Shown in pieces: positions 714 through 39,100 of a stretch of 64,000 bases of DNA. Where the stretch lies: positions 3,202,413-3,266,412 of the forward strand of contig CACVBU010000681.1 of the NCBI GenBank assembly GCA_902728285.1. Direction: 5' to 3'. Source of the DNA: Clytia hemisphaerica. Lineage: Eukaryota > Cnidaria > Hydrozoa > Leptothecata > Clytiidae. Made by a program: the position numbers and the translations under genes. Under the pieces are notes generated by a model. The model saw nothing but the letters and a program-made list of their open reading frames with translations, had not been told where the DNA came from and searched no databases. Position 1 is the first letter of the stretch; each line of letters begins with the position of its first letter.

Positions 714-3700
714 GTCAGACTCCAGTTTGTGGAAGTCCGTGAATTGTGACTCTAAACATTTCATTATGGAGGGCCAACTTGGTAAAATACTGCATCGAGG
801 TGTGGAATCGCTACGGCTGAGTAAAGCAGAAGTAAGTATTTCGTTCGTTCGTTCGTTCGTTCGTTCGTTCCTATTCTTGTTCATTTGCTCGCTTGTTTTT
901 TTAACGATACTTTGTTCATTTCTGCTTTTTAACCTTTTCCATTCCAATAACGCGTTCTGTTACGTCGTATATAACAAAACTTGTTCACCATAGTGTGTGT
1001 TCTTTCTTTTGATAGGTACTGGCTAACAAGCTTGCTCACCATAGTGTGTTTCTCCTTTTGATAGGCACTGGCTAACAAGCTTGCTCACCATAGTGTGTGT
1101 TCTTTCTTTTGATAGGTACTGGCTAACAAGCTTGCTCACCATAGTGTGTGTTCTTTCTTTTGATAGGTACTGGCTAACAAGCTTGCTCACCATAGTGTGT
1201 GTTCTTTCTTTTGATAGGTACTGGCTAACAAGCTTGCTCACCATAGTGTGTTTCTCCTTTTGATAGGTACTGGCTAACAAGCTTGCTCACCATAGTGTGT
1301 TCTTTCTTTTGATAGGTACTGGCTAACAAGCTTGCTCACCATAGTGTGTTTCTCCTTTTGATAGGCACTGGCTAACAAGCTCGTTCCCCATAGTGTGCTC
1401 TTTCTTTTGATAGGTACTGGCTAACAAGCTTATTCACCATAGTGTGTGCTCTTTCTTTTGATAGGTACTGGCTAACAAGCTTGCTCACCATAGTGTGTGT
1501 TCTTTCTTTTGATAGGTACTGGCTAACAAGCTTGCTCACCATAGTGTGTTTCTCCTTTTGATAGGTACTGGCTAACAAGCTTGCTCACCATAGTGTGTGT
1601 TCTTTCTTTTGATAGGTACTGGCTAACAAGCTTATTCACCATAGTGTGTGTTCTTTCTTTTGATAGGTACTGGCTAACAAACTTGTTCACCATAGTGTGT
1701 GTTCTTTCTTTTGATAGGTACTGGCTAACATTTGTATAGAAGACTGTGCATTACTGAAAGATGAAATAGAGTAAGTGCAATCTAAAGAGGCTTTCGGATA
1801 TCTTTTTATGTAAATAGACTGTAAATTCTATTGGATGGTCAGGAGATATAACTACAAGAGCATTGCCTTCATCAAAAAGAATGTTTCAATTCTTTTAGCT
1901 GTGCTGCATCACATCATATTCTTCGATTTCAGTCTTTTCATGAAACTAGACTTTTAGAATTCTGTGGGAGATTGCAAAGGAAACTTCATTATGACCTTTT
2001 CATGAATTACATCACGAACATCAGTTGCCCCGTTTTGAAATTATTGTCATGGTGATTAACTCCCAGCGGATTTTCTTAAATCTACTTTCTATTTAAAATT
2101 AATAATTTAATGTCTCAAGGGACATAATCAACATGATAATTGGTTGAATACGAGGCAAGTGATGTTCGTGACGTGATTTATGAAAAGGTCTATTGCCTCT
2201 TCAAAAAAAAATGTTTCAATTCTTTCAGATGTGAATTCCAACTAAAACAGTTAGACTGTTCAATGTCCAAGTTCAAAGATGAAGCATTGTCAACTTTAAT
2301 ACTGGTAAATTTCTTTTTGTTTATTGTTTAGGATTTTTACTGAGATTCCTAAAAAAGCTGTAGTAATTTTGTTCATATCTGAACTTGATTCTCAGCCTCA
2401 AACTGCGACGGTATAAATTCCCTACAAATTTAGCGATGGGTTCTTCCAGAGAAAAACCGTCCTTAGGGGGTGGAAGATATATTGTCCAGGGGTATCGAAA
2501 AAATCCTGAAAAATTGCCATATCCATATCTGCTTGTCCAGGGGGTGAAAAATCGAAATGTCCCGGATAGATCATTGAAAAAATAATATATCCTCCACCCC
2601 CCCCCCATGAACGAATTTTTTTTCTGGAAGAGCCCAATGTATCAGGTCCAAAAACGTGTATCGCCAAATTTATTCTGCCGTAAAACTAAAGTATAAATAA
2701 AGAATAAAGATTTAGTAGTAAATTCTCCTAACCTTTTTTATCTTTCTCTCCGCCCTTTTCCCACCCTCTATCCGCCCTCTTTATGTGCCTGTTGTGATTA
2801 AACCTGTCTGTTTAGAATTGCAAACAACTTGAAAACTTGTCACTCGAGAGCTGCAAACTTAATCCGACGGTACTAAGGTATATATACTCAATAGTATATT
2901 TCCTGTATACGTTGTTTATCTAACTCGTATTACACGCTTTTTTTATAAGAATATACTTTCTAAGAATTTCATGATGAAATTTGCCAAAAAATTAAGAATA
3001 TGCTAAGAATATCACTATCATGGAATTTCCAATCATAGATTGCCAATTACCCCCAAGTAAGGCTCATTACTTTCACAAAAATGCCATTTTATGCTTTAGA
3101 CGTATGTATTAAATGTCCTAACCTAAGAATGCTGTAAGAATATTTAAGGATGATTTTCCCCAATAAAAGTTAAGAATGTTCATCATGAAATGAAAAAATA
3201 ACCATTCTTATGAATGAAAAAGCGTGTATGATGTTATGGGTGATATAAATGATTCTTAAAACCTTTTTAGAAATTAACGGAAATAATAATTTTTAAATCC
3301 ATTCGGATCACTTAAGCAAATTTTCAAAATAAATATGTGGGAACCATTATTTGTACTCAGTGGGAGATCCCAGTCAATCTACAAGAGAAATGGCTTTTCT
3401 TCCTCGGTTTTTCTGGTACACCTCCGGAGGATTTTTTCAAAAATACCCTGGATTATATCAAGTTATCAGTCATAATCAAACAGGTTTTATAAAACATTAT
3501 TTTCTTCTTTTTAGTGGTGTTGGACTTAATAGGAATCTACGCGTATTGAATTTGGCTTTGTGTGTCGGATTGAACATTGGTTCATTGGATATGATCACGA
3601 GACAATGTCAACAGTATGTAAAAAACCATTTTTCAGTTTTTAGTTAAAATTATCTTGTTTCTCTAGTAGCTATTTTGAGGGGCTTTGTTATGAAAGACTA

Positions 3701-6336
3701 TTTAAAAGTTTTTTATTCTTTTAAAGACAGAATAGAAAGGGCCGCAAGAAACTCGAAACTTCTAATGATTACCGTAAGTTGGTCTAATGTCGACATCCCT
3801 TTTCTAATTTCGACATCCTTCTTTAGAGATCAACTGATTGCTATAAAGCTATGAAAATTAATTTCAATCAGCGATGTCGACATTAGACCAACTTACGGTA
3901 CGGTAATAACCAACCTTTCTTTTTCAGAATCACGTCATTGAATTTATCATGGACCAATCAGACAAGGGATGCCATACGAACGGTAACATTTATTTAGATT
4001 TGAATCCCAATCATTTGAAATTTTATTCGAATTACTGGTTATCGAAAGTAGATCTCTATCCCCCTTGTTGAAACTTCGAACGAACGGGATTTATCCACAG
4101 ATTTATAAAGCCCGAAGGGCTAGATGTAGTGCTTCGGCTGAAAAGTGCGCCGTGGTTAGGTAGGAAATCCTACCTAGGTCACGTGACATTACAATAGAAT
4201 TTCAGCGTTTGACCAATCAAAAGCTTCGCGGGTTTTTGAAAACAATCTCAACAATATTTTTCCGATATTCATTTCTTTGCCTGCTATGGCTAAAAGCACG
4301 ATATCTAGCCCTTTGGGCATTATAAACATTTGGATTTATCAGATAGAGAAAAGAGATTGTTCAATGAACACTAGATGTTATAAAAGGTATAAGGAGCTGT
4401 TACTATAGAAACGCTTGCAAATAAACTAGTGAAGATATAAGAAGTATAAATATTCAATTCCTATCATTTTCAACCGTAGATTTGTCGATGCCGTGAACTT
4501 CGTGAATTGAACTTGAGTGGGTTGCGTGGTGGCGTGAATCGAAAATGTAAGTCAATACTACCTTTAGCACACCCCCTTCTCACACCAGACTCGGTAGGAT
4601 GTTTTCAAGTCAGTGGGGGCAAAAATGACGGAATGAAACTCGATGAGGATTGATATCCCCATACTTTTTATAGCCGGGGATTTAATTTATTTTGTTTTCA
4701 AGTCAGAAAATTCACTGGGATGGGAAAAATAGCACAATATTTTGCAGTGAGGATTGGTTTATTTGATTATTTTCAGTGGGGACAAAAGTTGGAGGATAAT
4801 TTCCCACCGAAGACCGGCGATTTTTGTGAGAAGGGGGTGTTTCAGCCTTTTGCTTTCTTTTCAAGTAAATGTAACAGATATAGACTGGATCACCGATCTC
4901 TATAATCCCTGATAGTACAGGGTAGTATCATAGCATAAGAAAGTCAGTGCTAGTATGGATTCGCATTTGTTAGAGGGATAAAAGCTGCCATTAAAACTTA
5001 GACTGTACTCCAAAATAATCTCTGATATGATATTTTCTGTTATTTCTAGACATGGAACTACTTGTCAAGAATTGTAACAAATTAATGCAACTTGATTTAA
5101 GGTAAGGAATCTAAATCCATGTTCATATTTTTTTAGAGATTTTTGGGAAAGTGTTTTTTATAATTGTTTGAAGTTTATATCTTTTAAATTTACATTTAAA
5201 GATTTTGAAATTGTCCAATCTTTTTCTTTCAGTGACGTAGCATTACAGATCGGATCGTTAAAACTAATCGCCGACAATTTAACGTCATTAACGACATTAT
5301 CCATCAGCCGTTGTTCTGATGTTCGTTCTGAGCAGCTCTTGTAAGTTTGATCTCTCTAAAGGGCTAATAAAAATTTCCATATACATAGAACATCAGAGAA
5401 CATTTCTATTCCAAGCTTCAAAGCTTCTTAATCTCTTCCTTAATAAAAGCCTAATGTTCCATTTATCCACCCAGTAATTTATATTACAGTTGACGCTCTC
5501 TTATTCGACGTTCTACTATTCGATAGGCTCCATTATTCGATGAAATTTAAAGTCCCTACCAACAAGAAACTCTCATAAACGACGTTCTACTATTCGATAA
5601 GCTCCCTTATTCGATGAAAATTCTATTCCCCTTGAAGATCGAATTAGAGAGCGTCAACTGTATTTCAAAAAGTAGATGGCATCTTAAGGCCGGTTTCCAC
5701 TTGCGCGCGCTGCGATCGCACCTTTTGGCTTCAATCCTTTACTTGGAAAATGATTACGTCATAGAAATGTAGCGCGCTCTCGAAAAAAAAAGTTGAAGAC
5801 ATTTCAACTTCTTTCAACCGTTACGTCAGATCGCGCCAATGGAGTCGCTTCATTTTTCTTTTGACCAATAGCGTGGAAGCTTTGCTCGAAAAAGTGCAGC
5901 GCAAATGGAGACCGGCGTTTGAGTTTTATACACCCTTGATGCAGTTTCTTGATCCCAGTCAAGCAAAATTTTTGATTAGAATTTTTAAAGTGATACTAAA
6001 TGTGGGTGAAAATATTTTAAACGCATTTCATTGAATCATAAATTAACCAGATCTAAAAACTCCAATCAAAGATGGCGGATATAAGTTAGTTCAGGTCAGT
6101 GATAGTAACAGCTAATATTCAATTATTATTTTTTTCATAGTGATCTGAAGGAGCTTCGTTCGCTTTCACATCTCAACCTGTTTGGGTTCCTTAACATGAG
6201 CGCTCTTGAACTTTTCTCGGAAACTCGACCTGACGTTCATATTAACAAACACACATTCTCACCGATCGCGCGGCCGATTTCGTCCGCTTCATACGAAGGA
6301 CGTTTATGGGAGCAATATGTTGGTTTCATTATTTGA
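714..6336 (+). CDS. SKP2: SKP2-like F-box/LRR protein, 3' part (5' exons outside window)
   Basis: Substrate receptor of an SCF (SKP1-CUL1-F-box) ubiquitin ligase; in animals SKP2 targets p27-type CDK inhibitors. Eleven phase-consistent exons: 714-831, 1718-1770, 2229-2304, 2816-2877, 3515-3613, 3928-3982, 4480-4546, 5050-5101, 5233-5340, 6141-6336 (the last ends at TGA 6334-6336), i.e. ten coding blocks once counted. The protein starts with SLWKSVNCDSK, which corresponds to the segment after the F-box of human SKP2, then runs through leucine-rich repeats (CKQLENLSLESCKLN, LRVLNLALCVG, ITSLNLSWTNQ, LRELNLSGLRG, LMQLDLS, LTTLSISRC). It closes with INKHTFSPIARPISSA and a C-terminal tail, matching the INCSHFTTIARPTIG stretch of human SKP2; that match decides the assignment over other LRR F-box proteins. 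No F-box is visible in 1-713, so the gene is 5'-incomplete here. The intron before the second exon carries a minisatellite of copied acceptor sites. Confidence 0.9.
839..870. repeat. (CGTT)n microsatellite
   Basis: About seven uninterrupted CGTT units in the SKP2-like intron, starting only a few bases after the 714-831 donor site (GTAAGT at 832). Confidence 0.9.
974..1735. repeat. minisatellite, 15 copies of a 49-51 bp unit holding a 3' splice site
   Basis: Each unit contains TTGCTCACCATAGTGTG, a pyrimidine-rich tract (TTCTTTCTTTTGATAG or TTTCTCCTTTTGATAG) and then GTACTGGCTAACA. That last string is also the beginning of the real SKP2 exon at 1718. The 15 junctions lie at 1016, 1065, 1116, 1167, 1218, 1267, 1316, 1365, 1414, 1465, 1516, 1565, 1616, 1667 and 1718. 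Spacing is 49 or 51 bases. Two units read GCACTGG instead of GTACTGG. Confidence 0.97.
1991..2192. mobile_element. MITE, family with termini GACCTTTTCATGAATTAC
   Basis: The left end GACCTTTTCATGAATTACAT and the right end GTGATTTATGAAAAGGTC are inverted repeats. A second copy lies at 12455-12607. It sits in an SKP2-like intron. Confidence 0.75.
2436..2637. mobile_element. foldback element, GGGCTNTTCCA-terminated family, copy 1
   Basis: Begins ATGGGTTCTTCCAGAGAAAA and ends TTTTCTGGAAGAGCCCA (reverse complement). Both arms carry G- or C-rich runs (GGGGGTGG / CCACCCCCC). Other copies lie at 28239-28505 and 37116-37376. Confidence 0.75.
3770..3900. mobile_element. short foldback, termini TACCGTAAGTTGGTCTAATG
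   Basis: About 28 bases are repeated inverted at the two ends of 131 bp, ending CCAACTTACGGTA. A diverged relative with GTCTAATGTCGACA ends spans about 18236-18795. It lies between two SKP2-like exons. Confidence 0.8.
4086..4350. mobile_element. foldback with GCCCGAAGGGCTAGA arms
   Basis: AAAGCCCGAAGGGCTAGATG near the left end is mirrored by ATCTAGCCCTTTGGGC and an AT-rich stretch near the right end, inside an SKP2-like intron. Ends are approximate. Confidence 0.5.
4566..4847. mobile_element. foldback, termini ACACCCCCTTCTCACA
   Basis: ACACCCCCTTCTCACA at the left is mirrored by TGTGAGAAGGGGGTGT at the right. Inner sequence around 4715-4800 recurs inverted at 11190-11310. Confidence 0.65.
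5487..5660. mobile_element. pogo/mariner-type MITE, termini CAGTTGACGCTCTCT
   Basis: CAGTTGACGCTCTCTTATTC at the left and its inverse at the right (GAGAGCGTCAACTG), with TA on both sides (5485-5486, 5661-5662). Related copies lie at 7087-7260 and 27891-28062. TA plus CAGTTGA-type ends is typical of pogo/Tigger relatives. Confidence 0.85.
5686..5920. mobile_element. MITE, termini TTAAGGCCGGTTTCCACTTG
   Basis: AAGGCCGGTTTCCACTTGCG at the left is mirrored by GCAAATGGAGACCGGCG at the right. The interior contains GATTACGTCAT and AACCGTTACGTCA. A second intact copy is at 44990-45231 and an interrupted one at 41074-42483. Confidence 0.8.
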
Positions 6337-7086: not shown

Positions 7087-7260
7087 TTGACGCTCTCTAA
7101 TTCGACGTTCTACTATTCGATAGGCTCCCTTATTCGATGAAATTTAAAGTCCCCGTCAACAAGAAACTCTCATAAACGATGTTCCCTTATTCGATAAGCT
7201 CCCTTATTCGATGAAAATCCTATTCCCCTTTGAAGATCGAATTAGAGAGCGTCAACTGTA
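7087..7260. mobile_element. pogo-type MITE, second copy of the TTGACGCTCTCT family
   Basis: Same ends and same interior (ACGTTCTACTATTCGATAGG) as the copy at 5487-5660. It starts three bases after the preceding MITE. Confidence 0.85.
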
Positions 7261-12647: not shown

Positions 12648-15600
12648 TTAGAGTACAGTTTTTTTCTTCTCGATAAAGAAAACAATTTCATTCCGTGCGC
12701 TTTTACATGAATCCCATAGAATGTTATCATTTGCCTGCAAATATTCCAACTGGTTCATGGGTTGCTCAGGATCGTTCAAAACATACATTGAAATGATTGA
12801 ATTGTCATTAGTGAAACCATTAATATTAATACAAATGTTATAATTCGTTGGTTGTCTCTTGCTATTGTCAAATACAATCAAATGTGTGTTTCTATACATT
12901 TTTTTACCAGTTTGGCAAACTAAATCAGGGACGTTTTGAACCCATAAACATCGATTCTCCATTAAAATTAATTTAAAGAATACATTATTCTCATCTATAT
13001 AGTATATTGCACCTCCTTCCATTTTGGATAACAGTTTGCCAGTTCTAGTTTTATACGTTTGATGGTCAAGGAAAATGGAAGCATTAAAAGCATCAAAATT
13101 GAACGAGACATCACAGAACTCTATTTTCTCCATGGGCAGGATACCAGACTTACTCACACCATGATCTACATCGATAGCTTTAAACAGGTTGACAGGTGTC
13201 TCAAGCAGGTGTTGAACTAAATAGCCAACACCTTTAGATAAAGTATCGGTTAGGGTTAATGTTTTAAAGTGAATATCGCGATGCCTCTCCAGTGTTTCGT
13301 TTTGAACTTTAGTTTCTTGTTTTATGTTCCAAGCTTCGTTCTCGATTTTCTTTAACTTTGTTTCATTTTCGGTGAGCTTCTGTTTAACTGCATTTAATTC
13401 GTTTTGTGAATCAATGATTTTTCCACTTTGAGCTGCCGATAGCTTATATAATGATGTGATTGCTCCATTAGTTTGGTTTAGATCACTTTTCGTATCCTCC
13501 AGTTCCGTTTGTAAATTTTCAATTTCTTTATTCGAGGTTTCAAGCTGCTTTTCAACAGTTTGCAGTTTATTTTTTGTATCTGTGAGTTCTTGCTTTTGAG
13601 CAGCATAGTTTTGAAGGAGAAATTCGGTGTGACGAATATTCGCATCTCTCAAGTGTTGATTAAGATCTCGTCTCAGTATCTATAATGGAAAACGATGTTA
13701 ATCGGTTTAAAAAAATTGACCTTTACGTACCCTGAACATCCGCCGTCCTTATAGTAGGGGGTCAAGCCTTGGGTCCCGTGACATCTTTTCTACGACCTAG
13801 CCATTTTTAGTTTATTCAAAAGAACAGTATATACCAACATTCAGTAGTGCAATTAATAAGGTGCCACTCCCAAAAAACTGGTCGGGATCGAGAAACAAAT
13901 GTCCAGGGTATATAAAAGCCAATGATTAAAACAACAAGCGTTTGCATGTATCGAAAAATGTTCATAATAGACCAGCGTCCGAGATTCAGAAAAGGCCTTA
14001 AAACAGGTTTTCGTAGGGCGATCCTTAGATCAGGGTAAATTTTTGATATTATGATCCTAATAGGGTGTTGAATTGACAAAAAGAATTCTCCTGAAGTTTT
14101 CGAGTCAATCGATTTTTAGTGAATCGATAGAACCGCTTTACTAACGGTTTTTCGAGGTCTAATGCTACCAACAGATTCAGTGTGAAAAGTAGATAAAAAA
14201 AATGGGGCTATTTGTTAAGTTTCGACCATCTGGTGCCGATAAATGGCATTTTAAGGCGAAAAATCGACGTTTTGGCGTTTTCCGATGACGTAAGCTGGTA
14301 GCATTTTTAGGTGCCCTACGAAGTGACACACTACCTCGGCCGCTGGTCTATAAGTTGAGTTTGTCCAGACAATTTCTCGAATTGAATGTAGAAGGGAGAA
14401 GTGTGAATTTATTTGATACCTTTATATCACAGCCAACCATTTTAAAAGAACATTCGATCACTTGGAAAGGACAATCTTTTTCTTCGTGTTCCGACATCTG
14501 AAAAATGAGAAGAAGCATTTAGATTTGAAAATTTCCATATTCATACCCATCCATTTAAAAGGTTAAACCTTCTTTTTGAGTAGATTAATTTAGTCGTAAT
14601 CAGGCACGTGCTATTATGGAGACAAAATGTTCCATTTTATAATAAACGCAGTCCAACGAATCAATCAAACTCTGGAGAAAATAATGCCAATCTTAACCAG
14701 CTCTTACGAATTATATCAGAAGATAAGAGATACACGCATCGTTGCATCATTGGCGACTTCAATTTTCCGACTATAAATTGGAAGAACTGGACAAGCCCAC
14801 ATGTAGAGGAAAGTAAAGAAGAGCAATTCCTGGAAGCATTACGTGTTTCATTCCTTTTCCAACATACGAATGAACCTACCAGATGTCGAGGTACTGACGA
14901 GCCTTCACTGATTGACCTCATCTTGACAGATGAAAGAGATCAGGTTCAAGATCTAAATTCCTAAGCCCTTTAGGAAAAAGTGATCATAGCGTTCTCTCTT
15001 TTAGCTTTAAATGTTATATGGAACTTAAAGCACCAACCAAAAGATACACCTACCACTTGGCAGACTTTAAGTCGATGAAAAGTCATCTGCAATGAATCAA
15101 CTGGACGAGAGAATTCATAGATACCTCACATGGGTCGATCCAGGAGCTCTGGTCAAAATTCAAAACAAAACTTCTTCAACTCAGAGATCAATTTGTCCCA
15201 AGAAAAGAGTTAGGAGCGCCTCACTGGAAAAAGAAAGGGAAAATTCCAATCAATGCTGAACTACGTAATGACATCAAAGAAAAGAGGCGACTTCACAGGA
15301 TCTGGTTAAAATCAAAATCATCACCCACAAACAGACGTCAAGCAAGAATCCGATATGTAATCGCGAGGAACCGTGTCAATCGAAAGATGGCACTTGCAAA
15401 AAGAGAATACGATCTAGCCATCGGTGAAAACTCAAAGAGAAACCCAAAAGCGTTCTGATCACATGTCAGAGGCAAACTTAAATCAAAAAGTGGAGTTTCC
15501 CCTCTTCTTGAAACGCCCGATGACAAGACATCCCTAAAGCACGAGGACCAAGAAAAGGCCAACATCCTGCAGAAACAATTTTGCAGTGTCTTTACTTGAT

Positions 15601-18600
15601 TTGATTTTGACAACATAACAGATAAAATACTTCAACCACTAAACATTACGAAGGAAATGATAACAGAACAAATCAGGAAGCTCAATGCGAATAAATCAAT
15701 AAGTTCAGATGAGATTCATGCCTCAATGCTTATTGAACTTCGTGACCATATTGCAGAACCACTATCAATCATAATGAATAAAACTCTCGAGGAAGGAAAC
15801 TTACCTAGTGACTGGAAACTAGCATATGTGACACCAATCTATAAAAACAAAGGAGCACACAACCTTGCTATTAACTATCGCCCCGTAAGTCTAACTTCAG
15901 TAGTCTGTAAGTTGATGGAAACAATGATACGAAAACATATCATGGAACACCTTATCAGCGAAGAACTTCTATCGAACAAGCAATACGGTTTCAACAACAA
16001 AAGGTCAACAGTCACACAGCTTATCTCCTTTATAGATATGTGGCGAATCAACTGCAAAAAGTGAAGTGGTCGACTGCATATACTTTAATCGGATTAATTT
16101 TCGCGAGATTAAATTTCGCGATTTCGCGAATTTTTGCCATTTTCGCGAAATTAAAACTCGCGAACACGCGTGAGATTCCTGATTCGCGAAATTAAATCCA
16201 CCACAAAACTTTTAAAAATTGTATTTTTGGCGGAGAAACTAGTTCCAAGTCTCCATTTATGGCAAAAAATGGCTATTTTCAGCTGTTTTCTGGCTTATTC
16301 GCGAAATTAAATCCACGCGAAATATTTCAAAACTCTGACTCGCGAAATTAAATTCAGAAAATTTCGCGATTTTTTTAGCGCGCAAAATTTAATCTCGCGA
16401 AAATTAATCCGGTTAAAGTACTTCCACTTTGCCAAGGCATTTGACACCCCATCGAAGACGAATTCATTCTGAACTGGATCAAATCTTTTCTATCGAACCG
16501 CAAGCAATTAGTGAGTGTTAATGGTGCAAAATCATCTTTAGATCCAGTGATAAGTGGCATTCCTCAAGGAAGCGTGCTCGGTCCTCTGCTTTTTGTTATT
16601 TATATTAATGACCTACCAGAACATGTTCTATCGAGCATTTTCTTGTTTGCAGACGACACGAAGATTATAAAGGAAATCAATTCCATTCTTGACTCCTTAA
16701 TCGTACAACATGACATTGAAGCACTTGAAAGATGGTCCCGTGAGTGGCTGTTGAAATTCCACCCCGACAAATGCCACGTTTTAACGATAGGTAAATTCGA
16801 GAACATAAAGCATGCACACCCGTATCAACTAAATGGAGAGCAACTTGAACATGTCTTCACAGAAAAAGATCTCGGTGTTTTGATAGACTCAGATCTTTTA
16901 TTTGAAGAACATATCGCTAAGCAAGTAAACAAAGCTAATTCTATGTTGGGATTGCTCAAAAGAGGATTTCAAGACCCTAGTCCTCGCGTATTCCAGACAC
17001 TTTATACCACCTTTGTACGACCACATTTAGAGTATGCTCAATCAGTATGGCAACCAAGATTACGTCGATCTATCAACCTGATCGAGAGTGTCCAAAGACG
17101 TGCGACAAAACTAGTAAAACCAATCTCACGGTTACCATATGCAGAAAGACTAAGACGCTTGGCGCTACCATCCCTTGAGTTTCGAAGACTTTTCTGTGAC
17201 ATGGTCCAGGTGTATAAGCATATCCACATCTATGATAGTAAAACAACACCAAAAAAGTTTATCAAAAGGACGCGACCATGTAGAAAGCATATACACGAGC
17301 TTCAGATGAATTTCCCGGACGATGGAGTACGTGGTGCACAAAGCAAGTCCTTCTTCTATAGAACTATCTCAACATGGAACGCGCTTCCAAAATACGTGGC
17401 AGAAGCATCATCGATAAAATCGTTCAAGAATAATTTAAACAAAGCATGGGCAAACCATGAACTACGCTATTTATTGTAAATAAACAAAGACCAGTTCTAG
17501 AGGCCCATGGCGTGCCTGAACTTTGTATTCGTTGTAATAATAAAAAAATAAACGGGTGAGAAATGTTATAATTCTTCTGCTCGACTTACCTTGAATTCGA
17601 CGTACTTTTCCGTTATTGGTGTAATATTTTAATCTTTGCAAAGTAGGTAAATAAGTAAAGTAAGTAAGTTTGCGACCGCAGTTGAGGGTGATTCGAAGTC
17701 ACTTTTCTTTAGCTTTCTACTCAAAGGCAGGGGAAGAAAACACTCTTTTCTCTGAATGTCTTGAGCATCAAGCAGAGAGGCATCAAGTATCATTTTGAGA
17801 ATCTTTGGTATCTTTGGGGTTGAACCCACAACCTTACGAACCGTAGCCAGACGCTCTACCACTGCTATACCGTCATAATAGGCCATTTCACAGTCGAAAT
17901 GAATCATGGGTAATAGGGACTGGTTGCGCTCTAGTAACGACTTCTGGTTGGTCAGACGCAAAAATCTTCAAATATTTTCAAAACTTTGGACCGATAGTAA
18001 GTCGTCATTAGCGCACAGTGGTCCTGATTACCCATTACGCTTTTCGACTGTGAAATGGCCTATGCTACGGCTACTTTTAGCTGAGGAACAATATTTTCAA
18101 AAGTTCCAAGCCTCAGCCAGATTCATTTGGTTGTATACCTTTCTCCTCTGTAACATTATGCCACACCCATCATTTGGGCAAGTCACTAAAACCATTTCAC
18201 ACTGTTCATAATGGGCCTGAAGAAATAAAAAGTGATACCGGAAGTTCGTCTAATGTCGACAACCCCTCCTAATTCAGTCACCCTTCGGTAGGGTTACTTT
18301 AATGGGATAAACTTTCGCGGGGATTAAAGTTCGCGGATTTGGGTGTCATCCGCGAAATTAAGTCCCGTTGGAAATTTGGAAGAGCCTCATCCGCGAAATA
18401 TTTCTAAACAATACTCAAAATATGTAAAATAAATACTTTTTGAATGGTTACTTGGATCAAAGAAGCGCTAATAATGTGTATTTCAACAACCAACATGCAT
18501 GATTTGACAGTAGAAGTAAAAAAATCGTGAAAATATTGTCACCCAATAGTGCCACACGCGAAATTTTGAATTTCGCGGATAGGCTCAACCACGAAATTTA

Positions 18601-21126: not shown

Positions 21127-24100
21127 TCATAAAGAATGTTTCTTTTTCGTTTTCTTCTTCTTTTTGGTTTTCGATTCATCCTCGTCTGTTATGATCTGAA
21201 AAAACAAAAAGGGATAAAAAGTTGATACTTTCAGTACGAATTGCACGGTATACTATAGCCTGGATATCCAAGCTCAAAATTTTAGAAAAAACTAAATTTA
21301 CCTCAACATACAAAGTTCTAAAATTAGAGCTTGGTCTCCCTAGAGAATGAAAGTGCAAACCCATGTTTCCAAAACTTTCCTAACCAACCCAGGGCAGTAA
21401 AACAATAAAAAGCATCTAAAACCATTTAAAACATCCAAAGGTTACCCCAAAGTCCATAAACAAGTTTGCATGTATCACCATAACCAAAAATGTTTTCTTG
21501 GAAAATGAACTTGCCTCTGTTTTCTTCTTTTTCATGTTTTCATTTAACAGAGAGCTACAATCAGGGACAAAATACTTGGCACAAAAGGGAAATTCACCGG
21601 GGTGTTTTGAAACCACGATCGATTTGTAAGTGCTCTAAAGTAGGTTCGAAGGGTAGAGTTTTAACGCTAGACTTTAGACTTAGGACCTTAGATGTGAGGA
21701 TCCAAAAATTCAAAAATGGTCCAGTAGGGCTTGAAATATAGCCTAGAAACCAATAAATCCCTCCCAGATCGAAATACTCGATGAAATCAAGTTGAAGGCC
21801 TAAAAATTGACATTCTCGCTCGAACTTCAATTTTCGAAAAATTGTAAATTAGCCAAAAGTGCCAATATATTTTGACACTGATTGTATATCTTCACTAGCA
21901 AGTGGAAAATTATATATAACATTAAAAACACAGTTGTGTATTCCACGTTTCGACGGATAAAGAAACGTCGAATATACAACTGTGTTTTTAATGCTCACCT
22001 ATTATTTTTGACACAAATAATATACATTGACTTTTACGTTTTTTTATATATAAACCTGGATGGAGAAAGTAGACCATAGTTTTGAACCGGCAATTTGTTC
22101 AAACAAAACAAACAACCGGCATGACGCGAAGGGAGAAGGCGAGAGAATAATCTTGATCGATCAAATTACCGGCACCAGACTGTGGTCTACTTTAGGATAG
22201 ATGGCGGATTATCTTGCTTCAGTTAGGGATGTAATAGTTCCATCTAGTATTTTATATAAGATATCTGTGTCTGGAATACGTGTTATACAGTAATATATGT
22301 GTTATATGATAGTATGATAATTGCGATCAGTTTGTATGAATTATACCAATATCATTCAGAATTTCCTGAACCAAACTACAATTATAAATTACTCTAGTAG
22401 TATTATGGCATGCTAGACTTCAATCTTACAGCGAGTTCAACCAAAATATTTAAAAAAAATAAAGTAACCACAGTAACTTACGGTGGACTTTCGCTTGCTT
22501 AGTTTTTCTTTCGTCCTGAAATTAACAGAAAAGCTTAATTTACAACAGATACAATACCTAAAAAATAGGGACGGGCTGGAGTTCTTACAAGCTCTTATTT
22601 GATTTGGTTGGTCGTAAAGATGTAATAAAAGAATCTTATTACTTTTTCTAAAGAACGCGTCATCTCTATCACTTTAAATGACCAATTAGTGAAGTATCTT
22701 GTAAAAACTCCAGCTCATCCCAAAAAATAGCGTGCTAGACTTGGCCCTGTTACAAAGTTCGATACATTCACTTATCCTTTTGGCTTCTAGATCAACTAAG
22801 TGTTTTGTTTTATTGATAGAACTAATTTCGTAACAAGGCCGCTTTCTCATTCTCATTGTCCCGTGTTTTCCGCCCCTTTATGTCCTTCCCACCTTTACTT
22901 AAGATCGATCTACAGTCAGTTAGAGGTAACTGAATTTGTTCTGAAGTCAGATAAAGGTAACATTTTAAAGTGGTCAAACCAAGGTTCTATATTTGGGACG
23001 TAAAATGGATTTTACACAGAAAATTAGCACATATTCTGGAAGTTTTGGTGAATTACACAGAATTTATATATCCCTGAGACGGAAATCCTTTTGACACTGA
23101 TTTTAGTATCATCTTCATCTTAGTAGAGTCACTTTGTGCAGTCGAAAGTAGAATCTTACGTTGTTATGCTAACGTTGGAGAGGTTTTTCGTTTTCCCCAA
23201 TGTCTTCTCCCATTCTTCATTCGAGCCTGTGATTTCGTACCTAAAGAAAATACGCCAAGAGCTTCAGTGTGATTGGATAAAAACATTAGAAACGCAATGT
23301 GACTAGACAAAATAATTTACACCATCATTGAGGTAGGTCCATTAAAACGGCACTTGAGATGTAGTTTCAATATCGGTAAATGACGACAGGATTTCGTAAT
23401 ACACCTAAGAACTTATGAATACACCTTGACACCTAGAGTTTAGAATAACGAAGTTCACCAAGTGCTACAAACTTACTGTGACAGATCAAAGTTTTTCATT
23501 TTCTCTTTTTCTTTCTTCTTTTGACCTTGATATTCTTTTTCAACTTCAGCCTAGAATGAATGAATGAATGAATGAACGAATAAACGAATGAATGAATGAA
23601 TGAATAAACGAATAAACGAATAAATGAATGAATAAACCAATGAATGAATGAATGAATGAATAAACAAATGAATGAATGAATGAATATCATTGAAATGGCA
23701 AAACACGAAGAAGTAAAGAAAAGCACCTTCATCATTTGGGCATAAAACAAGCCGATGAAATCTCACTGCATTGTTTATTTAAAACTTGTGACAAAATTCC
23801 CTGCTTAGATCAAGATGTAGTGATAGAAAATGACTAATGTATGCAGAGATTTCAAACTAAAAAGTTACAAACTATCAGTTGGAGGAGGGGTTACTCACTA
23901 ATTCTTGTTTGAGTGATTGAGCAGTTGGCTCCATTTGAACACCAGTATTCTTCGGTAATAAAGCCTTCTCTATATCAGCTTCAACGATACCATTCAAAAA
24001 CTAGTAATGAAGAGATTAAAATCGAAGAGTGCATTCAAAAGTCAAGCACAGATGTGATCGAATGTTTTTAATATTTGGTAGCTCAAATACACGATTCAGA

Positions 24101-27100
24101 AGATTCACATTAATCGGCCCTCCATAAACAGGCCACAACAAATGTTGACAGCTGAAGTCGAGTGCTTTACCGACCCAAGCAGTGGCAAAAATTCTCTCTG
24201 AAACTGATTTTTCAGATTCACAGTGGTTAGATTTGAAGTTGAAAAGTTTCAATTACAGTGGAGTTTCGAGTTAAGGAGTAAGGTTTATAAGGTAAGGTAT
24301 TGTTAATTGTTAAAGGGACTCTACTGTAGGTCAACCATCCAAAACTAACATCAAGATATAAGAGGAATATTCGACAATCCTGTTGTGTTACTTAGTACCT
24401 GGTTTGCTTTTCTCATGATCTTGTTAAATAATCCGAGAATTTGTGTCGAAGGTAGCTCAAGTTCTTTTTCCATCTTTTCAACTGATTTTCTTTGCAGTCC
24501 CATGCCAAGTAAGATAGCCTGAAAAGGATTAAGAATTGGTGTTTGAAGAAGACATTCCAAACTCTGTTCTGGTCGAACCAAGATCAAGTTTAATTTATAG
24601 ATAGTCGAGCTGCCTGAAACTGGCGGGATAAAAGTAAACAAACTTTCATATTTCTTGGCTATCCACACATTATTAACCCTAATCATTTATGCTATTTCAA
24701 TACATTTGGAAATGAATCTCAAGGTTTGGATTACAAATTTCCTATATCTATATATCTTTTTTAAACCTGGATATTACCATCAAAGACGGGATATTTATTT
24801 ATAAGTTGTTTGATAAACGGGATGCATTTCCTTTTTCCATAGTCCGAATGCCACATAAAGATAGCAACTTGCCAGAATCGATTTTTTATTCTTCTTTTGT
24901 TGGTGAACTTCTCAGGATTGCTCGTTCTACGTTACTTTTCGAGGACTTGAAAGTTAAAGCCAAAGTTTTTATACAAAGAATGCGATGTCAAGGTGCTGAA
25001 AACGCAAAGTTAGATTGCAGTCTTCGACGGGTTATAGTTCGTCATTTTTCAGAATTTTCAAGATTTCAACTCTCTCAAGATTCACTCGTTCGCCAGCTCT
25101 TGCGGTGAGCGGTCACGGTGTACGGGGCTTCGAACCGGGTTATAGTCCGATTTTTTAAATTCTCATTCTTTCCCCACTCTTTCCATCTTATTCTTTGAAC
25201 TGTAAAATGTGTGTGAGAGCCACAGGGTTGGATAGTGGCAATCCAATCCCAGTTCCTTCTCTTCTAGTATGCTTTCTTCAACGTTGTGTCAGAAACGTGT
25301 CAAAGGTGTGGCAACTTTGTCTAGTAGAAAGTATACTTCTTTTCTCATTGTAATTTTAGTTTCTTCGGCTGGTTCCGTGTTACGTTTTAGTTTATTTTAT
25401 ATTATTGCGCGCGTTTTATACTTTCAATAAACACATCTTTTTACTATCTTTTATCTGTGGTGGTGTCTAATTAACACTGCTTGGCCTACCTACACAACCC
25501 TATTTCCATCATATAGGAGGATATTTTCACAAATGGCCGAAATCCTGTGTAGGTCGAAAACTGAGGAACAGATAATGTGTTTTTTTTGAAATATTTTTTG
25601 ACTCATATTGAGTTACTTCTTTCCATCTTAACTCATATTGAGTTACTTTCTTCCTTAAAGTCATTTTAGATCACTAGTTTTACATTGACGGGTTTCTATG
25701 TCATCATATTTTCCTTTTCTACTCCAACCTGATTGATTTTCTGTGAATGTTCATTCTAGATTTTTGTTGTATTTGTATTGTCTTTTTGTTTTGTGGGTTT
25801 TTGTCTTTATTGTTTCCATTTTGAGTAGTTGAAGGTTTTATACTTCTAGACTATATATAGTATGAAAATATAAATGTTTTCTCCTGTCAGACCTACAAAC
25901 AACAAAGAGTATATATATATGTTCGTTTTTCTAAACGTTTTGGTCTTGCTGTTTCTGAGAAGGACTTGGATCTTCCATGTATCTATTGGACTCCAAAGAA
26001 ACACAAGACTCCTACTGGTAAACGTTTCATTATCGCTTCAAAACATTGTTCCACCAAACTGATTTCTCGATCTGTCAGTCTAGTTTTTAAGCTTGTTTAC
26101 AGACAAGTTGAAAATTTCCATACAAAAGCAAAGTTTTTGAGCAATTATAATAAATTTTGGGTACTTCAAAATTGTGATCCAGTACTAGATTCACTCAACC
26201 GAATCAATAAAAAGAAAAACGCCAAATCTATTTCCACCTTTGACTTTAGTACATTGTACACAAAGATTCCTCATGACAAACTGATTAAAGAACTATCAGA
26301 GGTCATTGATTTTGTATTTGATGCAGGTAACTGCAAGTTTATCGCTATTTCTAAAAATGATAAAGCGTATTGGTCAAAAACAAAACCCAAATCTTCTGTG
26401 TCTTTTACACAGAATTCTTTGAAAACTGCTATGAAACATCTGATAAAAAATTGTTTTTTCAATGCAGGTGATATTGTTATGTGTCAAGTGATCGGGATTC
26501 CCATGGGAATCGATCCGGCGCCATTTTTGGGGCTAATCTTTTCCTCTACCAATACGAACAAAGGTATATGAGCAGGGTCATTGAGGAAAATAAGGTTAAG
26601 GCTCGCCATTTTCATTCGACTAAAAGATTCATTGATGATTTGTGTGCTATCAATGACGGTAACTTGTTTCAGTCTGTGTATAGAGATATCTATCCAGATG
26701 AGCTTGAACTCAAAATTGAGCACTCTGGTAATCATGCTTCTTTTTTAAACCTGGATATTACCATCAAAGACGGGATATTTATTTATAAGTTGTTTGATAA
26801 ACGGGATGCATTTCCTTTTTCCATAGTCCGAATGCCGCATAAAGATAGCAACTTGCCAGAATCGATTTTTTATTCTTCTTTTGTTGGTGAACTTCTCAGG
26901 ATTGCTCGTTCTACATTACTTTTCGACGACTTGAAAGTTAAAGCCAAAGTTTTTATAAAAAGAATGCGATGTCAAGGTGCTGAAAACGCAAAGTTAGATT
27001 GCAGTCTTCGACGGGTTATAGTTCGTCATTTTTCAGAATTTTCAAGATTTCAACTCTCTCAAGATTCACTCGTTCGCCAGCTCTTGCGGTGAGCGGTCAC

Positions 27101-33100: not shown

Positions 33101-36100
33101 AAATCTGAGAAAAATAAGGATGAGAAAATGTCAAAAAAAAACGGTTTTTCCGGCATATTTCCGGCATTTTCGAAAATCGGGCTCCGTCACATTTTAAGTA
33201 TTGTCATTTTGCATCAGTGTGCAAAATTTCATAAAAAAATAAAGTACAGCTCGAGAAATTCAAGAAATACTGTCTTTCCGGCGAAAATAGGCTGTTCCGG
33301 CGATTATTGAATAGTTCCGGCTTCTAAAATCAATTTCATTGAAAATTGGAACATACTTGATGGTGGGCATTGCTATTAAAGTCTGTCCAGATATAATTGG
33401 CAGTGGAAACAAGAATGCCTGTAACTTTTAATAGTGAAATATAATTCCAAAATTTTTTTTTGCTTGTTTTAGAGAATCAAAAGCGCTATATTTGAATGTA
33501 TTTTTTGTTGAAAAATTCGCGAGTTTTAGCAGTTAAATTTACCATTGCAAAAATTGAGCTTTTTTTCTTTTTATGCTATAACGTTCATTTTTAAACTAGT
33601 GGTAGTTTAACCTTAGGTAAAGAAGGTTGTTGAATTTCAAGCCAAACGGAAAAGTCCTTCGGAAGATATAGGACCCGAAATACCCCTTGGTAGCACTTTT
33701 CTGTGAAATATCAAATCTCCAAATTTTTACTAAAAACGGTGGTTATGTTATCTTTTTTTTAACATTCAATTAAAAGTTGTGTTGCTGCATTTGCGTTATT
33801 GGTATCATTGATCATTTCGAAACAAAGTGAATGCACAGTTTGATTGTTTTTATTGAAACGATAAGCACATTGAACTTACATTGCCTTTGTTGTTTTTAAG
33901 TAATTATAGAACTTTGCTACTTCCCAAAACACTTTGCACAGTTTGACAATGAGGTCATTATCGTAAAAAGATCGTAAAATGTGTTATAATATATGATTGA
34001 AAAACTGTTTTATCATCACTACCCCCGTTTTTATTAAAAATTTGGAGATTTGATGTTTCACAGAAAAATGCTACCAAGGGGTATTTCGGGTCCCATATCT
34101 TCCGAACGACTTATCCGTTTGCCTTAAATTTAACAATCTTCTTGACCTAAGGTTGAACTACCACTGGTGTAAAAATGACCGTTGTAGCATAAAAAGAAAA
34201 AAAGCTCAATTTTTGCAATCGCAAATTAAACCGCTAAAACTCGCAAATTTTTCAACAAAAAATACATTCAAATATAGCGCTTTTGATTTTCTAAAAGAAG
34301 CAAAAACATTTTTTGCAATTATATCGGACTATCAAAAGTTACAGGCATTCTTGTGTCCACTGCCAATTATATCTGGACAGACTTTAATAATTTTTTTGAA
34401 TGAAAAAACAACCAACTATAAGGAAAAAGTCTCAAAAATCGGACTCGGCCATGTTTTGGGCATTGTTAATACGCATCTTTGAGCAAAAAATCAGAAAAAA
34501 CTAATGATAAAATCTCGAGAAAGTGCCAAAAAATCAGTTTTTCCGGGATATTTCCGGCATTTTCGGCCGAAAATTTTTTTTCCCAAAAATCGGGCTCCGT
34601 CACATTTTGGGCATTGCCATTTTGCATCATTGTGCAAAAAATCAGAAAAAACTAATGAGCCAATCCCGAGAAAAGCTGGCAACAGACGAACGAACGAACG
34701 AACGAACGAACGAACGAACGAACGAACGAACGAACGAACGAACGAACGAACGAACGAACGAACGAACGAACGAACGAACGAACGAACGAACGAACGAACG
34801 AACGAACGGACGGACGGACGAACGGAAATGGGTTAATTTAAAGGACCTCCACCGGGGTACCCGGAGGTAGGTTCAATAAAACTCATCGCCTGATTAAAGA
34901 AAATATGTCGCGCGAAAACAAAGAAAGGGCTAGATTCAATCGGCCATTCTAAATGCAGCGAAAACCTTAAGGCTTCTTGCTAGAAAAAGGTTGAAGATTC
35001 AGTAAACCAATGGGCCATACCTCGCCATTGTTATATCCATGCTTTACTATTTTCTCAGAAAGGGTCAGAGAAAACCTTGGGTATGGGTATATTGTTGAAA
35101 CCATTTTGACCGAGATTTTTTAAACCCTCCCAGAAGAGAGTTACAGTAAAACGGTACCACCTACATCGACAATACATTAAAGGAAGAAATTTTGGCGGGA
35201 AGAAAATTTGGCGGGTTTGGCGGATTTGTCAGAAATCCACCAAATTAAAGTCTATTCACGATAAGTGTGCACTCTTTTTTCATTTACCTTTAACTTTTGA
35301 AGGAATTCTTCAATCTTTATAAATTTGGTATCATTGGAAAGATATTACTGAGTGGAACAATTTAAAATAAAAAGGTCTTTGAAAAAATGAAGAAGATGAA
35401 GAAGATGAAAATGAAGAAGAAAAAAATGAAGATCTTGTAGAGAAGTGCTATAACTTTCATTTTCACTGGAGTAAATCTTTGATTATTGAACGAAAAATTT
35501 CTTAAAATTAATCATTCAGTCAAAAGATATCAAACAAAGTTATAAGCTGATTGACGTCTAAAAACGCTGTTTTCTGCTGTTTTTTGGGGTCAATCACTTA
35601 TCAACTTTGTATCATAACTTTATATTGGATAAATATTTTAGTGAAATTTCTTCACAGTGATGATCTCCTAAGATCAAAGAATCTCTCCAGTGAAAATGAA
35701 AGTTATAGCACTTCTCTAAAAGATCTTCATTTTTTTCTTCTTCATTTTCATCTTCGTTTTTAGGATTTTTTCAAAGACTTTTTTATTTTAAATTGTTCCA
35801 CTCGGTAATATCTTTCCAATGATACCAAATTTATAAAGATTGAAGAATTCCTTCAAAAGTTATAGGTAAATGAAAAAAGAGTGCACATTATCGTGAATAG
35901 ACTTTCAGTTCCCACCAAATAAATTTTTTTCATCCATTCGCTAAATTTAATTCCCGCCAAATTTATTTTTTTCCTTTTATGTCCGATTTTTCACAATTTA
36001 CCCTCGATATCAATGTTTTCACCCTGATTTCAAATTAAAAAAATCCGTCATCCGCCAAAATAAATTCTCGCCAAAATTAGCTTTTTCCTTAATCCGCCAA

Positions 36101-39100
36101 ATTAAATTCCCACCAAAATTTCTTCCTGTAATGTATATTACCTTGTTACCATTGGCAACTTCGGCTTCGTCTTCTTCTTCTTCTTCGTTCAAACTAACAA
36201 TGTTTCCGGAATAATATTCAATCAATTGTTTGATAGCTCTTTTGCCGTACCCCATCTATAGATGAAGAATATATCTAGGAGATGACTATCTGGAGCTAAG
36301 ACCTCGCCTGCCGCCCAAAAGGTCACACCCGAAACTATCCCTATTTCGCCGTATTGGAAAGCGTTCTGTTTTTGAATATCGCCATCTTTTCGTTATGTGA
36401 AAAAAAAGTGCAGAGCAACAGCAGTGACGTTTTCCAAGACAGTTGCCGAAAGGAGACCTTCATAAACTCTAGTTTAGACAGTCCACTTTTCACCTTACCT
36501 ACTCTAACAATTAGAATAGACAGGGAAGAAAGTCGACCGTCTTAACTAGAGCTAATACCCTCAAATATGAGGTTACAAAGATACTTTCCAGCGCAGTGTT
36601 AGCAGTAAGGATCAAAAGTCAAGCATAAAGGTGTTGAAAAAGACATACCAATTTATTTTTTAAATTTGAGTCGAAGGGTCTCTTACTTTTTGGAAATCCG
36701 GGTGCGTTGCGATACGGACAATACGTGCACCGGAAAGGTTACCGAACTCGTGGTCATTGAACTGTTGGCTGACGGTCCAAGGGATCATATCACCGGAAGC
36801 ACGCTTACCGCGTGACAAACTGTTCATAATGATGTCTTTAGAGATCTCGCCTTCTAAGCAAACCTGGGATTATAATGAATAAAAGAACTGTACAGTGAAG
36901 ATAGATATAGTCGATATTTTATAAGGATAGCCCCGTAATTTAACACATTTAGACATTATTTTGATTGTTTTCACGGGTCTACGGCCAGCCGGCGGCGCGG
37001 CTATTTATGAACTAAACGGAACATTGGAAGGAGCGGGGATTCGAGCCAAAAACCCCTGGTTTGGGGCACTGGCGCCTTGACCACTCGGCCATCACCCGAT
37101 AATCCTTCATATCTGGAATGGGCTCTTCCAGAAAAAATTTAAATATGGGGGAGGGTAAGATAAAACATTTCTTTGGAAATTTACCCCTTCCCCCAGACAT
37201 TGCAACTTTTAACCCCCAGACAACAGATCTAGCCCCCTGGACAAGCATCGCAGTTGACCCCCAGACAATCATAATTATCCCTAAACAGAGGCAGAGCAGT
37301 TTCACCCCCCAAACAAGGCAAATTTTGCAGACTTTTCTCCACCCCCATGTACGAAAGTTTTCTGGAACAGCCCAATATCGATCGAATCTTTTCATTCCTT
37401 CAATAAGTAAATCTCTTTAGAAACGACTCCTCTTATTGACTATTCCCGGAAACCTTTCCGCGTGTTACCCATCCTTTCAGTGGCATATATCCTCAGAGAG
37501 AAATATTATGCAACACTTTTGATTTTCATTAACGTTGGAATATTCATTGTAAGAGCCTGAAATGTTAAAGTTGTTGTCAAGGGCCTGGGGAAAATATAAA
37601 GGAGCAGCTCATTTAATGTTTCTAAGACAGCCACAAACAACATACCTGAATGACGCAGAGGACTTCGGGTAATGAGGTTTGGTCCGATTTAACGGGACCG
37701 AGAAGACAAAACAAATGGTGGGCGGGCGCATCTGACATCAATTGTAAATCATTTGGCGTGTTCTAAGAAGCAAAGTAAGAGCCAATGGGCACAAACGTCT
37801 TTTGGTCGTCCAATGTACGTTCCTAGGACGTCCAAAGGTCTTAAAGCTGTCCATTGAATGTCCATAAGACGTCGCGTGCCCATAAGAGCATAGGTTAGAG
37901 TGTGATTTCTCAAAGAAAGGATCTCTCTTAACTGTACAGGGCTATGTGTATGTTTACTTTCAGGGATTGGGCTGCTAATGATGTCCTCCATTTCAGCCTA
38001 AAAAATTGCTTCTGAAGGTCCTAAAAAATTCAAGTTACTTTATAATTGGCCCAGCGCTAGCAATAGGGCCTTTCATTAGCACTTTTCCGTCCGTCCGTGT
38101 ATCTGTCTGTCCGTTTTGGTAGAAACGGCGCTTAAAACCAGTAACACACTTTTTAATTTTGCCGTCTGGAGAAGGAAAAGCTTGGCTAAAGTCGGATACT
38201 GGCTATAAAAGATATATTTTCTGATTCCGCGCTCCTTCAAAACAATTTTCAAAACAAAACAAGATGGCAGTCGAAGCGAGGAGGTTGATTCATACTTTCT
38301 TGAACATTTTCTTTGCTTTAGTGGTCAAGAGACTTTCAAACCAAAGAAATTTTGTAATTATTTTTCTTTATAAACCTTTTTCAACATTCTGCCATATCTT
38401 ATAGTCTTTGCTCAAGTTTTCATAAAGTTTTATGAGTGAAAATTCTACCTTAAATCACTTTCATTTTTAGTTTCTTGTTTTCCATGGTCTTTATAAATTT
38501 TTAGGAAATAATGGCTTCTGATATAGAAATAAATAAACTGAAATGCAGCTGATGTGTAAAATTGAATAAGATTGGAACTTTTTTCTTGATGCTACATAAG
38601 AAAACAGTCACTTCTGGATCTGTCGCTGTTCAGGCTGTTAACAAGACAACGGTGGTCAGTAGTGGTGGGACGTGGTATGATTTTCAAACTCAACACATAA
38701 TTATTTCAAGTAAACTGATTCTGGAATTTGGTAATGGACACTAATATGGAGCCCATGTGTAAATTGGAACATGATTGAAACTTTTTCCATGATGCTACAC
38801 GTGAAAATGGTTGTTATTTCTGGATCTGTCTCATTTGACGATTGGTGGCTTGATTTGTCAAACTCGACACAGAATTATTTCAAATAAGCTGATTATGGAA
38901 TCATGTTAATGGAGACTAAAATGCAGCTCATGTGTAAATTTGAACAAGATTAGGACTTTTTTCATGATTCTACACGTATATTAAATAAAATGGTCATTTT
39001 TGGATCTGTCGCATTAAACGATGGGTGGCTTGATTTTTCAAACTCGACTCACATGATTATTTAAAGTATAAACTGATTCTGGAATCTGTTTATTGACACT

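Follow-up and report, generated by a model that had tools for sequence, protein, structure and literature searches.

We found that the 3' splice site of an SKP2-like exon (1718-1770) is preceded by 14 copies of itself, all carried by a minisatellite whose repeat unit consists of the 3' end of the intron plus the first 13 bases of the exon, and which hence spans the intron/exon border, as the initial annotation of this DNA had proposed. Every upstream copy leads into an early stop, and the last acceptor is the one that reads open. The array is probably a minisatellite of the 'mirage' type that grew over the 3' border of the SKP2 intron, and it would be mainly a tolerated by-product, with splicing taking place mostly at the last acceptor. 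Below, 'the window' means the whole 64-kb stretch of DNA that was analysed.

In a TRF search the array gave a score of 1292 with a period of 51, 15.1 copies and 92% matches, against best scores of 38-67 when the window was Markov-shuffled 20 times. The G+C content of the window is 31-42% per 2 kb, mostly below the value of about 41% for amphioxus. This upholds the 15-copy minisatellite ending in exon 1718-1770 that had been described previously, although its start shifts from position 974 to 972. The unit length had been given as 49-51 bp; most units measure either 49 or 51 bp, but the first is longer. Neighbouring acceptors are 51 bp apart in 8 of the 14 intervals and 49 bp apart in 6. There are nine distinct sequences among the 15 units, and five inner units are identical. 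No significant higher-order periodicity of the units was detected at lags 1-8, the lowest values being those of lags 4 and 6 (0.161 and 0.156 of 5000 permutations).

The exon at the end of the array belongs to a gene with ten visible exons, the first starting at 714 and the last ending at 6336, which together form one open frame of 294 codons with a stop at its end. Residues 1-286 of the predicted protein match positions 44-322 of the SKP2 PDB chain 1fqv_A (E 5.4e-30), with FBXL2 as the second-best kind of protein (3.6e-10), and both the LRR part and the C-terminal tail are collinear with SKP2. Pfam returned LRR_Zer-1 alone, barely above the cut-off, and the F-box exons of SKP2 would lie to the left of the window. 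When the second exon (E2, donor GA/gtaagt) is omitted, a stop is reached one codon past the junction; the frame therefore needs E2 or an equivalent. The residues encoded by E2 align poorly, in a section of the SKP2 match that contains gaps, so the support for this exon comes from the frame and its flanks and not from its own likeness. With that qualification, its earlier description as SKP2-like stands.

A pseudo-exon at 3731-3773 was tried in the gene model and rejected, since with it the frame is interrupted at 4480-4546; an open frame results when 3613 is joined to 3928. The GTAAGT behind this open 43-nt pseudo-exon comes from the left end of a MITE-like inverted repeat (3770-3900, 31-nt arms, 97%). 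Two further repeats were noticed within the gene. One is a (TTCG) microsatellite of 7.8 copies at 840-870, a few bases past the E1 donor and sharing its intron with the array. The other, at 5478-5669, is an element that has inverted ends and carries ATTCGA motifs in its internal repeats; a second copy of the element lies behind SKP2 at about 7090-7260 (by eye). Rfam gave nothing at gathering scores.

Table 1. Positions of the array, its acceptors, the SKP2 exons and the second copied border in the window.
Feature	Position	Strand	Remarks
Minisatellite	972..1730	.	15 units, 49 or 51 bp each (first 52), TAACA at both ends
14 decoy acceptors TTTTGATAG	1007..1666	+	early stop in 14/14
Decoy AG ends, exact TTTTGATAG copies 1-7	1015, 1064, 1115, 1166, 1217, 1266, 1315	+	
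Decoy AG ends, exact TTTTGATAG copies 8-14	1364, 1413, 1464, 1515, 1564, 1615, 1666	+	
True acceptor	1709..1717	+	sole one of 15 keeping the frame open
Exon E1	714..831	+	open frame and PDB match; donor GAA/gtaagt
Intron 1	832..1717	+	886 nt, contains the array
Exon E2	1718..1770	+	53 nt, entry phase 0, exit phase 2; frame
SKP2 exons	2229-2304, 2816-2877, 3515-3613, 3928-3982	+	open frame and PDB match
SKP2 exons	4480-4546, 5050-5101, 5233-5340, 6141-6336 (stop included)	+	open frame and PDB match
Second copied acceptor (E3 border, single copy)	1862..1903	+	34/42 identical to 2192-2233
Inverted repeat	1993..2190	.	arms 1993-2064 and 2119-2190; 72 nt, 81% complementary

Exact copies of TTTTGATAG occur 15 times in the array, with AG ends from 1015 to 1717, and 3 more copies of this 9-mer lie outside it on the + strand of the window. 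The count of 14 copied acceptors in front of the real one was thus correct. The decoys had also been said to have the same local sequence as the used acceptor, which is true of the core: in an ungapped comparison 12 of the 14 are identical to it over -9..+13, but the number drops to 8 over -20..+13 and to a single decoy over -37..+13. Similarly, the 13 bases that open the exon, GTACTGGCTAACA, had been given as the end of every unit; they were found behind 12 of the 14 decoys, while the remaining two have GC in place of GT. AG is present in all 15 units. A run of 11 pyrimidines precedes GATAG in each of the 15 acceptors (read off the units, three of them counted). Two candidate branch points, CTAAC and TTCAC, are located in the last unit, 40 and 28 nt before its AG end, and the former is copied exon sequence.

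When the gene is read from any of the decoys, the frame runs through 15 or 19 codons of array sequence and then meets a stop. The argument that the frame would vary with the acceptor chosen is arithmetically right, but the change is without effect because all 14 decoys stop early, and a variable-number splicing switch acting through the choice of frame finds no support in view of the same result.

We scored the acceptors with a matrix built from the nine other acceptors of the gene, leaving one out at a time and using larger pseudocounts. This matrix is a weak tool, because a genuine acceptor of the gene (AG end 4479) ranks 229th-240th in it. Among 318 other AGs the array acceptors rank 52nd-129th by this weak matrix, depending on the unit and the pseudocount, and are therefore not strong by such a test; the true acceptor ranks 80th or 92nd on the same limited scale. 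A CATAG within the last unit took rank 12th or 15th with this nine-acceptor matrix, weak as it is. We rejected it as an acceptor (CATAG at 1695) despite its good score, as it reads into a stop (GGC TAA, by eye). A first nine-acceptor matrix was over-trained and was replaced by this one; in it the array acceptors had taken ranks 97th-165th among 342 AGs.

The ends of the array suggest how it may have arisen. The motif TAACA bounds it on both sides, at 972-976 in the intron and at 1726-1730 in the exon, and among 5605 pairs of neighbouring positions, 5 have 5 or more bases in common. The repeated segment of about 51 bp extends from the intron TAACA to the exon TAACA. Slipped copying between the two probably began the duplication, after which slippage or unequal exchange would have multiplied the unit. 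The junctions of units 2-15 have one A fewer than a clean exchange between two TAACA would leave. Each step of growth would have kept one intact border beside the exon, so that the protein would have remained unchanged while the array expanded.

The first and the last unit differ from each other in 1 column and share an A at column 8 that is private to these two; a T at column 13 is found in 5 of the 15 units. From the 13 inner units, the first unit is separated by 3-9 columns and the last by 2-8. On these few bases we read the first and last units as edges that may have kept ancestral sequence. The comparison of cluster edges rests on the shared private base and on this T, yet just 2 columns separate the last unit from the commonest inner type, the identical five, fewer than separate many inner units from it. 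The initial annotation had left three options for the array side by side, and the TAACA at both ends, the likeness of the first and last units and the 14 dead decoys together make a neutral slip product the best fit among them.

How the intron would be spliced in the presence of so many acceptors can be proposed from the gene structure. The last acceptor would mostly be chosen because it lies only 53 nt from the donor of the exon, GA/gtaagt, with which it could pair by exon definition. Messages spliced to a decoy carry an early stop and would be expected to be lost through nonsense-mediated decay. If the last acceptor is used and decoy messages decay in this way, the array would be mainly a tolerated by-product, and its copy number would be expected to vary.

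Arrays of this kind have been described in amphioxus under the name of 'mirages', tandem repeats that lie over exon-intron borders, in Adh3 (Canestro 2002) and in the globin genes BflGb6 and BflGb9 (PMC3087553). According to the account of the globin genes, the BflGb6 unit joins an intron's 3' end to the beginning of exon 2 and is present 6 times in one haplotype and 3 times in another; many units of these mirages carry AG/GT, the boundaries of the clusters lie outside homogenization, and RT-PCR suggests regular splicing (PMC3087553). The SKP2 array has the same two sequence properties, a border-spanning unit and AG/GT in many units, and like that of BflGb6 its unit is made of an intron 3' end and an exon 5' end. 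Judged by these properties, the SKP2 locus appears to join the border-spanning minisatellites already described as mirages in amphioxus. The gene is a different one, the unit is 49-51 bp long as compared to 150-160 in BflGb6 and 10-72 in Adh3, and there are 15 units here versus the 6 and 3 of the BflGb6 haplotypes (PMC3087553). The length of the SKP2 array is known from the sequence of one haplotype, whereas the amphioxus globin cases are known also by RT-PCR and from alleles (PMC3087553).

Other systems share single features with the array. In the potato RdRp gene, as described in PMC4974935, a duplication over the intron 1/exon 2 border turned the upstream exonic copy intronic, but it was a single duplication, compared to 15 units here, and the new intron came about through a cryptic donor of the upstream exon. 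The anatomy of the SKP2 array would permit a new intron spliced from one copy to another, as in intron gain by AGGT tandem duplication. Two fission yeast genes are reported to contain 24-nt tandem repeats with proto-splice sites inside (gained) introns; unlike the SKP2 units, these repeats resemble nearby exons, have AGGC sites and are partly supported by ESTs (PMC3629103). The human IFI6 (6-16) minisatellite also multiplies a splice site (Turri 1995, via PMC2572611, PMC4526556 and PMC3618361), but there it is the donor that is multiplied, and downstream copies are reported to be used, giving rise to isoforms (PMC4526556). Finally, the recursive-splicing ratchet points of Drosophila, as presented in PMC8605326, place an acceptor and a donor directly together (AG/GT), as the array does. 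They are found for the most part in long introns, and the donor at such a point is generally stronger than that of the cryptic exon behind it, in contrast to the poor donor and the 886-nt intron found here.

This likeness leads to an alternative in which the array would remove itself. The 14 units that can be read from acceptor to acceptor start with GT in 12 cases and with GC in 2, and all of them end with AG, which gives 105 array-internal combinations of donor and acceptor with lengths of 49-702 (20 of them from a GC donor, by hand count). Since the units run from GT or GC to AG, the removal of whole units keeps the same register. Splicing might accordingly remove runs of whole units, either earlier or later than the main intron, and yield the same final message, which we consider unlikely. 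The array would then amount to a set of interchangeable splice modules closed under splicing, with many of the 15 acceptors in use and the leftovers removed as GT-AG or GC-AG mini-introns, and we hold this to be doubtful in equal measure. If it were true, the message would not reveal that the array had grown, and unit removal that failed now and then would produce stop-bearing messages whose share would rise with copy number.

Compared with the donor consensus MAG/GTRAGT, the internal donor TAG/GTACTG has 5 of 9 matches and its GC form 4, whereas the nine real donors of the gene have 6-8. By a rough estimate of the U1 pairing energy, TAG/GTACTGG at -5.5 falls among the nine real donors, whose values run from -3.4 to -10.0, and the GC form has -2.9; however, when 3304 GTs of the window were tested, 7.3% of them paired with U1 at least as well as the GT form of the array. 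The donor that is rebuilt after splicing to a decoy, GAA/GTACTGG, has -3.1, or -1.5 in the GC form. In addition, single units of 49-51 nt are at about the lower limit for animal introns. In favour of such splicing, a weakened ratchet-point donor in Drosophila is reported to be still partly usable (PMC8605326). As far as the sequence allows a judgement, self-repair by unit removal appears possible but is not favoured, because the internal donor is poor and has only -3.1 once rebuilt.

The array could instead act as a dosage switch. In that case the extent of decoy use would be proportional to the number of decoys, messages with a stop would be destroyed and the length of the array would set the level of SKP2. 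The pyrimidine run shared by all 15 acceptors and the fact that all 14 decoys are dead ends would suit such a role, and a C. elegans minisatellite has been linked to multiple splicing decisions (PMC4039745). Published mirages, on the other hand, are reported with undisturbed regular splicing (PMC3087553), and we regard the switch as quite improbable.

We looked at whether variation is spread evenly over the unit. The variable positions avoid the part made up of acceptor and exon, where 1 of 10 hand-counted events falls in 22 of the 52 columns (P 0.034, for a region chosen post hoc), which speaks weakly against pure neutrality. This bears on the idea that the copies are helpers, their pyrimidine tracts and branch points raising the local concentration of U2AF and U2 and thereby strengthening the last site. 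It would agree with the middling acceptor (by the small matrix) and with a core that varies less than the rest of the unit, but the P value comes from ten events counted by hand in a region picked afterwards, and recent homogenization explains it equally; we think it very unlikely that the copies serve in this way. Least probable is an assembly artefact, with the array or its length wrong: one amphioxus mirage haplotype was apparently aberrantly assembled in a draft (PMC3087553), but nine distinct units out of 15 are unlike the simple repetition of one read, even though the copy number could be wrong despite them.

We scanned the 10 acceptors and 9 donors of SKP2 as 42-mers for similar sequence within 1000 bases, and the acceptors of E2 (42/42) and E3 (34/42) were the only ones to stand out. 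The other 8 acceptors and the 9 donors gave best matches of 21-25/42, which is the null level (null fractions 0.075-0.853). The copy of the E3 border is a single one in the next intron, 330 bp upstream of the original, and it has its own TTTTAG with the AG end at 1898. None of 1000 shuffles reached 34 matches (best 27); among 652 42-mers of the gene that served as a null, true repeats included, 1.2% did. The inverted repeat listed in Table 1 lies between the two copies and abuts the true E3 border segment. If used, the E3-border decoy would truncate the protein as well. Because the next intron has a second copied acceptor, the duplication of borders may be recurrent in SKP2.

Several other features were seen in the window. 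A 343-codon open frame at 12651-13679 (- strand) has a coiled-coil-like part and a match to CC2-LZ below the Pfam cut-off. Pieces resembling a non-LTR retrotransposon, with endonuclease (PF14529) and reverse transcriptase (PF00078), are located at 14584-17476 (+ strand), and a second reverse-transcriptase-like frame, below the Pfam cut-off, at 25861-26568. Exon pieces similar to NAT10 (RNA cytidine acetyltransferase; PF05127, PF08351) were found at 44053-44337 and 49589-49912 (- strand). Other tandem repeats occur in the window (28 TRF rows), and there are long ACGA and GAAT tetranucleotide repeats at 34686-34824 and 23554-23685, respectively. In the stretch 38500-40500, which was inspected by eye, no splice border was seen within the repeats.

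With fifteen near-identical acceptors of which one reads open, the SKP2 array amounts to a natural competition experiment on the choice of a 3' splice site by the spliceosome. It also offers a snapshot of exon sequence turning into intron. If the organism is not a cephalochordate, the range of mirages would extend past the amphioxus cases in print.
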